DNA from: Halogeometricum pallidum JCM 14848
Lineage (GTDB): Archaea > Halobacteriota > Halobacteria > Halobacteriales > Haloferacaceae
NCBI RefSeq assembly: GCF_000337095.1
Contig: NZ_AOIV01000026.1
Span: 1 to 58,262, forward strand
Direction: 5' to 3'
Length of the DNA stretch: 58,262 nucleotides
The notes under the pieces are model-generated. The model was given only the letters and a program-made list of their open reading frames with translations, was not told where the DNA came from and made no database searches. Below, piece after piece: positions 4,499 to 34,886 of the stretch; the first letter of the stretch is position 1, and each line of letters opens with the position of its first letter. A program made the translations under genes and the position numbers.

Positions 4499-4617
4499 CC
4501 CACCTTTCTTTTCGAGGGTCCTCGCAGACGGCTTCGCCGTCTGCTCGAACCCCCGGAAGAAAGCTGGGGCAAAGAACGGCCGCGAGGGCTCGCTCACTCC
4601 GTTCGCTCGCCTCGCGG
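4499..4617. repeat. Composite intergenic palindrome, copy A
   Basis: Between carS and pyrE. The outer arms 4499-4511 and 4557-4569 are complementary at 12 of 13 positions. Inside is a perfect 9-bp hairpin (4524-4532 with 4536-4544, loop TTC). A second stem follows: CCGCGAGG (4580-4587) with CCTCGCGG (4610-4617). The loop of that stem contains a 22-nt sequence (4589-4610) that recurs inverted and exact at 34113-34134. The layout resembles 54352-54455. It could act as a bidirectional terminator, or it may be a dispersed repeat. Confidence 0.65.
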
Positions 4618-14513: not shown

Positions 14514-14574
14514 GGGTCGAGACGCCGTACGCTCGGCGATAAAACGCCTCGCTGGAGGAAGGAGAGTCAAAGGA

Positions 14575-14647
14575 CGCCCGGAGCGGGATTTGAACCCGCG
14601 TCACGACCGTGACAGGGTCGTATGATGGGCCACTACACCATCCGGGC
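14575..14647 (-). tRNA. tRNA-Asp (GTC), copy 2 of the tandem
   Basis: 73 nt on the minus strand. The acceptor stem GCCCGGA pairs with TCCGGGC, the discriminator is G, the anticodon loop is CTGTCAC (anticodon GTC) between ACGACC and GGTCGT, and the T-loop is GGTTCAAATCC. CCA is not encoded. It is identical to the copy at 14667-14739 and lies 19 nt downstream of it in transcription order, so the two are probably one transcript. Confidence 0.96.
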
Positions 14648-14666
14648 AGGCGTACAGAGCAAACAG

Positions 14667-14739
14667 CGCCCGGAGCGGGATTTGAACCCGCGTCACGACC
14701 GTGACAGGGTCGTATGATGGGCCACTACACCATCCGGGC
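14667..14739 (-). tRNA. tRNA-Asp (GTC), copy 1 of the tandem
   Basis: 73 nt on the minus strand, identical in sequence to the tRNA-Asp at 14575-14647, with the same cloverleaf and anticodon GTC. It is the promoter-proximal copy: an AT-rich box (14768-14776) lies about 30 nt upstream on the minus strand. Confidence 0.96.
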
Positions 14740-33681: not shown

Positions 33682-33923
33682 GTCGCTCCCCGTTTCCCGC
33701 ATCGATTCGCGTCGCCCGCGAGGGCGACGAACCGGCGCGCGTCTGGCCGCTCGACTCGAAGCCACGACGCTAAGGCGCACGCGCCGTTTTCTCTCTCGCG
33801 TTTCCCACCTCGGCGAGCGATGGCTCCGTCTCTCGTTCTCAGGCCGCCGCCCGGCCGCAGCGACCGGATATCCGCGGTCGTTCCCCGTGTCAGTGGCTCT
33901 CGCGCCGGGGGCGAAACAGAAGG

Positions 33924-33930
33924 TACAAAT
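33924..33930 (+). promoter_or_regulatory. Promoter box of tRNA-Ala
   Basis: TACAAAT about 29 nt upstream of the tRNA-Ala 5' end at 33956. Confidence 0.5.
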
Positions 33931-33955
33931 GACCGGACGCCTTCGAACGAAGTGC

Positions 33956-34027
33956 GGGCTCGTAGATCAGTGGCAGATCGCTTCCTTCGCAAGGAAGAGG
34001 CCCGGGGTTCAAATCCCCGCGAGTCCA
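33956..34027 (+). tRNA. tRNA-Ala (CGC)
   Basis: 72 nt. The acceptor stem GGGCTCG pairs with CGAGTCC (one G-U), the discriminator is A, the anticodon arm is CTTCC-TTCGCAA-GGAAG (anticodon CGC, codon GCG) and the T arm is CGGGG-TTCAAAT-CCCCG. No CCA is encoded. The 3' half is repeated downstream (34138-34158 and 34233-34245), as often seen where mobile elements integrate. Confidence 0.95.
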
Positions 34028-34062
34028 CTAATTTCTCTCGACACTACCGGCGAGCGAAGCGA
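34007..34062 (+). repeat. tRNA-Ala 3' end plus flank, copy 1 (intact gene)
   Basis: The last 21 nt of the tRNA (34007-34027) and 35 nt of downstream flank. The 48-nt segment 34015-34062 matches 34233-34280 at 44 of 48 positions with no gaps. Confidence 0.8.
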
Positions 34063-34098
34063 GCCGCGTATGTCGAGTGGATTCGTGTTCTGTTCGAG

Positions 34099-34210
34099 CG
34101 GGGATTTGAGCAGCGAGCGAACGGAGTGAGCGAGTGAGTTCAAATCCCCGCGAGTCCATTTCCTTCCGCTCACTTCGTTCGCTCCAGTCAATGGACTCGC
34201 TTGCCCCCGT
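34099..34210. repeat. Palindrome cluster containing tRNA-Ala 3'-end copy 2
   Basis: 34138-34158 is an exact 21-nt copy of the tRNA-Ala 3' end. The segment 34099-34110 is its inverted partial copy, and the 11-bp arms 34150-34160 and 34190-34200 (GCGAGTCCATT with AATGGACTCGC) form another palindrome. 34113-34134 is an exact inverted match to 4589-4610. Confidence 0.75.
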
Positions 34211-34232
34211 TCACTCGCTACGCTCGCGGGGA

Positions 34233-34280
34233 CCCCGCGAGTCCACTCATTGCTCTCGACACTACCGACGAGTGAAGCGA
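34233..34280 (+). repeat. tRNA-Ala 3' end plus flank, copy 3
   Basis: Contains the last 13 nt of tRNA-Ala (34233-34245) and 35 nt of downstream flank; 44 of 48 positions equal 34015-34062. Together with copy 1 it brackets about 170 nt of palindromic DNA with no gene, like an excised or decayed insertion. Confidence 0.75.
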
Positions 34281-34392
34281 CTCTCCTCTGATTATCCAAA
34301 CCGCCGCGACCGCAGACTTTTCTAATCGGACGACGGTGACACAAACGGAAACGCCGCGGTTCGTGCGACGGGAGCTGCGAGAGAAACAAGAC

Positions 34393-34665
34393 ATGACGGA
34401 AAAGACCACCTCCACCGGTCCGGACGGACGCTCGATACCCGACCTCTCTTACGACGAACTGGCGAGCGAAATCGTCGGCGTCGTCGCCGAGGCGACAGGC
34501 CGCGACCCCACGACGCTGCGTCCGGTCTCGGAGGTGATGGACGCCGAGGCGGCCGACAGGATACTCGAAAACCCGAACACCGGCCTCACGGTCGCCTTCG
34601 AGTACGAGGGCGGCGTCGTTCGGGTAACCAACGACGAGGTCCGATTCGAACCGTCTGAGGAGTAG
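34393..34665 (+). CDS. HalOD1 output-domain protein
   Basis: A 90-residue haloarchaea-specific HalOD1 domain protein with the pattern SYDELASEIVGVVAEATGRDPTTLRPVSEVMDAEAADRIL, then VAFEYEGGVVRVTNDEVRF. HalOD1 domains are thought to be signalling output modules; this one stands alone. An in-frame GTG at 34336 would add 19 residues, and the promoter position (AT-rich near 34320) does not decide between them. A second HalOD1 protein is at 54572-54841. Confidence 0.8.
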   Translation: MTEKTTSTGPDGRSIPDLSYDELASEIVGVVAEATGRDPTTLRPVSEVMDAEAADRILENPNTGLTVAFEYEGGVVRVTNDEVRFEPSEE

Positions 34666-34697
34666 CCGCGGCCGTCGGTTCGCGTCGTCCGAACGGG

Positions 34698-34886
34698 CTA
34701 CCGACGCTCGTCGGTCGATTTCTCGAACACGCGTTGGAGTTCGTCGCCGATGCCGTCCTGCCACTTCCGACCGCAGTTCTCACAGACGTAGTCGGCGCCG
34801 TCCGCGCTGTGCGGGTCGGGGTCGGCCAGCGTCTCGCCGCAGTTGGGACAGTCGGTCACGTGCGCGACGACGGCGCCCGCGCGCAT
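34698..34886 (-). CDS. Small zinc-ribbon protein
   Basis: A 62-residue protein with two CxxC knuckles (C13-P-N-C16 and C35-E-N-C38), so a single zinc ribbon, and a short helical tail GIGDELQRVFEKSTDERR. Such CPxCG mini-proteins are abundant in haloarchaea and mostly uncharacterised. The ATG at 34886 was chosen; in-frame GTG codons just inside it are alternatives. Confidence 0.65.
   Translation of the reverse strand: MRAGAVVAHVTDCPNCGETLADPDPHSADGADYVCENCGRKWQDGIGDELQRVFEKSTDERR

Follow-up and report, generated by a model that had tools for sequence, protein, structure and literature searches.

Hairpin-rich units ending in copies of the local tRNA 3′ end follow tRNA-Ala(CGC) and other tRNA genes in Halobacteria

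Introduction

Partial tRNA genes that are left or displaced by integrative elements occur as direct copies of the 3′ end downstream of an intact tRNA gene (PMC9897764; for the att sites of archaeal tyrosine recombinases, PMC8371274). The SNJ2-type integrase family is confined to Halobacteria (PMC8371274). The pleolipovirus Harhisp1 is integrated at tRNA-Ala of Haloarcula hispanica, and tRNA-Ala is also occupied by relatives of Halfvol2 (PMC7911831) and by a Haloquadratum prophage. Another group of haloarchaeal elements, the SMRs, PATEs and MITEs of Haloquadratum, is non-coding, palindromic, ∼80–110 bp or short and presumed to be moved in trans; the SMRs target palindromes of other mobile elements, without duplication (PMC3119063). 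In the archaeon Methanopyrus kandleri, a palindromic motif of 19 nt lies 10 bp behind about half of the tRNA genes; it is specific to M. kandleri and carries no tRNA copy. In integron cassette (attI/attC) arrays and CRISPR arrays, the newest unit is found beside a fixed site and older units lie farther out.

Here we describe a tRNA-Ala(CGC) locus followed by short units, designated A and B, that resemble each of these systems in part; none of the systems compared matches all of their features. Like the partial tRNA genes, the units provide direct 3′-end copies downstream of an intact gene, and the positions where these copies begin, the T-loop or a point close to the 3′ end, match known integrase sub-sites (PMC8371274). 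However, they are spaced ∼62–150 bp apart with no element between them, and the spacer is a two-hairpin unit that recurs across many isotypes. Five relatives carry elements at this tRNA end, with a core of 13 bp, in the manner of SNJ2-type, pleolipovirus-like proviruses (Harhisp1, Halfvol2; PMC7911831), whereas the DNA analyzed here contains neither an integrase nor an element at this tRNA, and units A and B are not parts of such proviruses. The units share the size range, palindromic nature and presumed mode of movement of the Haloquadratum elements, but they occupy tRNA 3′ ends, and their last bases are always those of the local tRNA. The M. kandleri motif is similar in its position behind tRNA genes and otherwise unlike the units. 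The resemblance to integron and CRISPR arrays is architectural only and consists of an apparently newest-proximal order and a hairpin with two inverted core boxes; the units contain no genes or spacers and their fixed site is a tRNA gene. No description of the units was found in the open-access full-text literature; subscription papers were outside this search, and a prior description is possible.

Results

The tRNA-Ala(CGC) locus

The window, the whole stretch of 58,262 nt that was analyzed, is one complete contig of a 4.38 Mb draft haloarchaeal genome, labeled G000. A repeat search of the window showed that GTTCAAATCCCCGCGAGTCCA, the 3′ end of tRNA-Ala at 34007–34027, has an exact second copy at 34138–34158, and that the 48-nt block at 34015–34062 is matched at 34233–34280 with 44 of 48 positions identical (92%). 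Both repeats had been reported in a preliminary description of this DNA and were confirmed; the second could be resolved into a 13-nt tRNA end (34233–34245) followed by 35 nt resembling the sequence directly 3′ of the tRNA. The arithmetic chance expectation of a 21-nt exact match inside ∼130 nt is ∼3e-11. Inverted pieces of the tRNA end were detected at 34100–34109 and 34192–34200 by sequence inspection and repeat search. The order of the array is tRNA, unit A, unit B and a decayed A head, with the following features (covariance model R1 is described below):

33956–34027 (end 34027/8), plus strand: tRNA-Ala(CGC), host of the array (ARAGORN; Rfam RF00005, 68 bits)
34015–34027, plus strand: 13-bp att core CCCCGCGAGTCCA, which bounds the inserts in G002, G003, G101, G051 and G116 and is the reference for the B-type copy
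34028–34158, plus strand: unit A, 131 bp, comprising hairpin H1, a linker, hairpin H2 and a copy of its own tRNA 3′ end (fold z = −5.3 against shuffles)
34037–34077, plus strand: hairpin H1 of unit A (folding, z = −4.1 for 34028–34082)
34098–34158, plus strand: hairpin H2 of unit A with the tRNA 3′ end (R1, 63.2 bits, E = 9.9e-15; z = −6.1)
34100–34109, minus strand: inverted copy of T-loop and T-stem, GGGGATTTGA, pairing with TCAAATCCCC (repeat search; covariation at T-loop positions 57 and 59)
34138–34158, plus strand: 21-nt exact tRNA 3′-end copy, from G53/T54 to the discriminator base (repeat search, boundary analysis)
34159–34245, plus strand: unit B, 87 bp, comprising a C/T-rich palindrome, an inverted acceptor strand, a second hairpin and a 13-nt tRNA end
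34192–34200, minus strand: inverted copy of the tRNA acceptor 3′ strand, TGGACTCGC, inside unit B (repeat search)
34233–34245, plus strand: 13-nt tRNA 3′-end copy CCCCGCGAGTCCA, terminus of unit B (repeat search)
34246–34280, plus strand: A′, truncated head of an apparently older A-type unit (resembles 34028–34062, 92% over 48 nt)

Units A and B belong to two related families, the T-loop type (A) and the acceptor type (B), both of which are non-coding, rich in hairpins and terminated by a tRNA 3′ copy. Segment 34098–34158 shows the properties by which T-loop-type units were defined, namely an R1 match over H2 and the own tRNA 3′ end from position 53/54. The similarity of 34246–34280 to the start of unit A suggests that it may be the remnant head of an older A-type unit. 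In an Rfam search of the window the matches to curated families were tRNAs only, and units A and B matched none. Folding of the window sequence gave unit A a tRNA-like shape with TGGATTCG paired to the acceptor-strand copy; this reading was dropped, as the pairing partner was not conserved in G004.

Several other observations were made in the window. Open reading frames called across the tRNA and the units (33820–34137 and 34009–34764) are probably spurious and represent a risk for gene annotation. A solo palindromic core of the H2 type, GCGAGCGAACGGAGTGAGCGAGC, is located on the minus strand at 4588–4610, remote from any tRNA. Two tRNA-Asp(GTC) genes lie in tandem on the minus strand at 14572–14739, and the orthologous pair in G001 is followed by two tandem units.

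Units downstream of other tRNA genes

The survey took in every tRNA gene of three congeneric genomes, and a match was defined as at least 16 of the last 20 nt of the gene itself recurring within 500 nt downstream. Such a copy was present behind 23/50, 17/46 and 17/46 tRNA genes (∼37–46%, including a few true tandem tRNA genes for Asp, Gly and Arg-GCG), against 41/2296, 20/1966 and 35/1966 (1–2%) in control regions downstream of other isotypes. After removal of the tandem tRNA genes, 60 units of 95–150 bp (median 118 bp) remained. They have a common order, H1, linker and H2; included in H2 are the T-loop in inverted form, a core that is palindromic (CAGGGAGCGA...GAGCGACCG) and the tRNA-end copy. 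Single N positions in the tandem arrays of tRNA-Arg(GCG) and tRNA-Gly(GCC) (contigs C27 and C8 of G000; L012 and L059) suggest collapse or joining during assembly.

The 48 well-preserved A-type units matched their own tRNA with an identity of 0.96–1.00 at each of positions 53–73 and at background level from position 52 down; since these units were picked for a good 20-nt match, the identity inside the block partly reflects selection, but the lack of upstream extension does not. At the variable T-loop positions 57 and 59 the A-type copies agreed with their own tRNA at 0.98, compared with 0.51 and 0.76 for other isotypes. The B-type copies, which were picked by a 13-nt match and belong to Ala, Arg and Gly tRNAs, did not extend past position 61 and were accompanied by an inverted acceptor strand. 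The B type was seen behind Ala, Arg and Gly tRNAs in the three congeners and behind tRNA-Ala in several Haloferacaceae genera. In many genera B directly follows the tRNA or the right end of a provirus, and B-type relatives lie behind Arg and Gly tRNAs.

Structure and covariation

Hairpin H2 showed compensatory changes at 7 of 11 predicted pairs. The inverted T-loop agreed with the own tRNA at position 57 in 50 of 55 units (28 by shuffling) and at position 59 in 45 of 55 (35 by shuffling). Across the 17 nt of the inverted copy the specificity was weak (10.9 for own versus 10.3 for other tRNAs), and the signal was clear only at the variable T-loop positions. When folds were compared with shuffled sequences, the units had a median z of −3.5, with 82% below −2, and downstream regions of tRNAs lacking a unit had a median of −1.0, with 25% below −2. 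The units are kin to each other, and all of these structure and covariation figures overstate independence.

Distribution across Halobacteria, viruses and plasmids

Because covariance model R1, which describes H2 and the tRNA end, was built from tRNA-trailing units of three genomes, the association with tRNAs in other genomes is the more independent test. R1 matches were present in 115 of 116 Halobacteria genomes and in 46/46 genera, with up to 31 matches per genome, and a tRNA adjoined each of the 30 top-scoring loci of the class that were fetched. In the wider phylum outside the class, there were few matches at most, with marginal scores of ∼34 bits or less that may represent ordinary tRNAs. 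For 18 of the 19 matches listed for G000, a same-strand tRNA lies 38–218 nt upstream; the remaining one (C7:23300–23362) has none upstream in the list for its contig.

The exact full unit signature was not found in viral contigs. Looser signature patterns occurred in 23 and 54 viral contigs; 34 were scored with R1 and gave one strong match, behind a host-type tRNA-Glu. In this viral contig (L317, 13744–13980), two tail units lie behind the tRNA-Glu, close to genes for tail proteins, and the segment is probably host DNA beside a provirus. Searches of phage and plasmid collections with the 50-nt unit core, and of viral sequences for the B junction, returned no match, and blast against phages and plasmids recovered ordinary tRNAs only.

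Integrated elements at the same tRNA end

The preliminary description had proposed that relatives be compared for inserts at tRNA-Ala. In five other Haloferacaceae genomes, an insert of 11–32 kb overall was found between the orthologous tRNA-Ala(CGC) and the usual downstream flank: ∼32 kb in G002, 12.5 kb in G003 and, from a family search, 11 kb in G101, 11 kb in G051 and 12 kb in G116 (G001, G002 and G003 belong to the same genus as G000). All five inserts are bounded by CCCCGCGAGTCCA at both ends, and in each a tyrosine integrase gene ends 16–56 nt before the right copy. The integrases of these elements are related tyrosine integrases of the SNJ2/Harhisp1 type, and the proposed check was thus positive for the tRNA. 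The integrases of G003 and G002 matched Pfam PF00589 and PHROG phrog_1, and that of G116 was 60.6% identical to Harhisp1 Int and 45% to that of Saline Natrinema sp. J7-1 virus 2. The attP of Harhisp1 is annotated with 15 nt. The site therefore has the properties of an attB of SNJ2-type integrases, with elements encoding such integrases at the same tRNA end and an identical 13-bp core on both sides, within the 13–15 bp expected, and the tRNA-Ala site is confirmed as a common docking point for viruses and defence-bearing islands. The ∼32 kb island of G002 (L041, L042) encodes the BREX-like defence genes BrxA, PglZ, an Eco57I-type methylase and a helicase, and in addition an HNH nuclease, a SIR2-domain protein, an RFC-like clamp loader and a replication protein.

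Unit B lies outside the insert in 5/5 elements and is also present in the empty genomes of Haloferax larsenii, Halobellus captivus, Haloprofundus marisrubri and others, and B is therefore older than these five insertions. R1 was run against the DNA adjoining attL and attR in each of the five elements and gave no full match in G003, G101, G051 and G116; the single match in the G002 element was a 30-nt palindromic core near the right flank. The Harhisp1 region likewise contained no match to the unit model. Spacers derived from the att arms of an element were thus not recovered for A or B, as no full unit match occurred in the five elements.

Turnover and sharing of units between isotypes

In G000 and G004, unit A (131 nt) separates the tRNA from B; in G001, B is adjacent to the tRNA. 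G037 has the reverse order, with B before A, which suggests that either kind of unit can come first. Most relatives lack A at Ala(CGC) and scattered ones carry it. At Arg(TCG), G004 has a 114-nt unit, and the next 160 nt match at 96% the sequence that directly follows the tRNA in G000. The 108-nt unit of G000 at Met(CAT) likewise shows precise presence and absence among congeners, and at Arg(CCG) a unit is found in G000 and G004 and is missing in G001. All three sites thus show the presence and absence with clean empty sites by which mobility of MITEs and SMRs is recognized, but the direction is often loss or ambiguous; the Arg(TCG) and Met cases are more likely losses, since the third genome has a similar unit. 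Terminal inverted repeats, a further mark of MITEs and SMRs, were not seen at the unit ends by eye.

Unit numbers ranged from 0 to 3. When the copy nearest to the tRNA was compared with the last one in 16 tandem arrays, 11 arrays had the better-preserved copy next to the tRNA, 1 had it at the far end and 4 showed no difference (p = 0.003), although several units and genomes are related and the statistics are not fully independent. Some tandem sets resemble plain tandem duplication, for example four units at 111-nt spacing in G099.

At E<1e-6, 111 pairs of units crossed isotypes, such as those of Ser(GGA) and Asp(GTC) with 82% identity over 113 nt. Within these pairs, the last 13 nt agreed at 6.8/13 with each other and at 12.8/13 with the own tRNA. 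The combination of homology across isotypes and locally matching ends indicates that the bodies spread or share ancestry and that the ends follow the local tRNA.

Discussion

In the explanation that we favor, with a probability of about 0.5, each unit is a non-autonomous mini-element that a trans-acting enzyme, probably a tyrosine recombinase, would have inserted at a tRNA 3′ end; mobility is presumed and the enzyme is a candidate. Each insertion would restore the tRNA and displace the old 3′ end and earlier units outward, and recombination between the copies would also lead to precise loss of units. A trans-acting recombinase of this kind is the most likely mover and might be one of the SNJ2-type integrases that haloarchaeal viruses encode. 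A tyrosine recombinase is favored because of the fixed site, the two block lengths at known sub-sites, the decay with distance and the restriction to Halobacteria, which resembles that of SNJ2-type integrases. The start of the A block at the T-loop and that of the B block at position 61 correspond to two of the three known tyrosine-recombinase sub-sites in tRNA genes (PMC8371274). An SNJ2-type integrase is suggested because this family uses the same tRNA end in relatives. No enzyme was linked to the units and, except for the tRNA-Glu case on a viral contig, no unit turned up in viral, phage and plasmid collections. Further points speak against this proposal: if a tyrosine recombinase transferred a unit from one isotype to another, an acceptor strand that does not fit the new tRNA would be expected to come with it, and local ends on shared bodies are more readily explained by target duplication or gene conversion; circles of ∼100 bp are short for such recombination; and the clear cases of presence and absence at Arg-TCG and Met look like losses and not insertions. 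A more far-reaching reading is a cassette-like system in which tRNA T-loops are landing sites and a structure-recognizing recombinase would insert gene-less units of ∼100 bp with a folded T-loop core, giving time-ordered satellite arrays that copy the local 3′ end; we regard this as tentative and rather unlikely.

Target-duplicating transposition and a selected RNA trailer are the live rivals of insertion by a recombinase. The units might be functional parts of the tRNA transcript, hairpin trailers or terminators that selection would maintain for their RNA structure and that slippage would increase in number. The strength of the structure (median z −3.5 versus −1.0 for unit-less downstream regions), the compensatory changes, the fixed orientation and the close linkage to tRNAs are consistent with this explanation. 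It is nevertheless an unlikely one, as over half of the tRNA genes have no unit, the same tRNA differs between congeners, the number of units varies from 0 to 3 with precise presence and absence, and a terminator does not need the acceptor strand of its own tRNA. Transposition with target-site duplication, by a casposase-like or other transposase, would insert a body and duplicate the tRNA end through a staggered cut, and it accounts for the locally matching ends on bodies shared across isotypes. Casposases indeed target tRNA 3′ ends and generate duplications of 14–15 bp, but the duplication made by the M. mazei casposase consists of the last 4 bp of the tRNA and 10 bp beyond it (PMC6977970). 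The block copied by the units, at positions 53–73 or 61–73, lies wholly inside the tRNA, and a casposon-type origin is not favored. Moreover, two block lengths (about 21 and 13) would require two enzymes, terminal inverted repeats are not apparent by eye and the inverted T-loop is left unexplained, which makes this route quite unlikely.

In the preliminary description, repeated integration and loss was one reading of the copies. As att-site scars of this kind, they would be tandem 3′ ends, with bits of elements between them, left behind at tRNA-Ala by viruses or islands that came and went. Integration-derived partial tRNA copies are well known (PMC9897764), five relatives show genuine integrations precisely at this tRNA end, and the 13-nt terminus of unit B coincides in extent with the att core. 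These points are outweighed by the defined two-hairpin architecture that is common to units at unrelated tRNAs, by the failure of R1 in the attL and attR surroundings of the five elements (apart from the 30-nt core in G002) and by the A-type ends, which exceed the core: the 21-nt end of unit A begins at the T-loop. Unit B with its 13-nt end is present in insert-bearing and empty genomes alike and predates the insertions, which already weakens this interpretation. A recurrence of the arrangement at unrelated genes was to count against the scars even in the preliminary description, and both kinds of unit are indeed located downstream of many other tRNA genes. Improbable as scars are, part of the original idea stands. 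The tRNA 3′ end is a used attachment site in relatives, and in the window it may fairly be called an empty site ready for insertion; neither statement applies to the two partial copies downstream, which are not scars of those elements.

If insertion of mini-elements is the correct explanation, a class-wide family of short repeats would have been overlooked beside tRNA genes in essentially every haloarchaeon sampled. The annotation of tRNA fragments and att sites would become more complicated, as the loss of a virus could no longer be read from a partial copy in the neighborhood of a tRNA gene. The arrays would preserve insertions at tRNA genes in their order in time, and would raise the question of which enzyme inserts units that match any tRNA in which they land.
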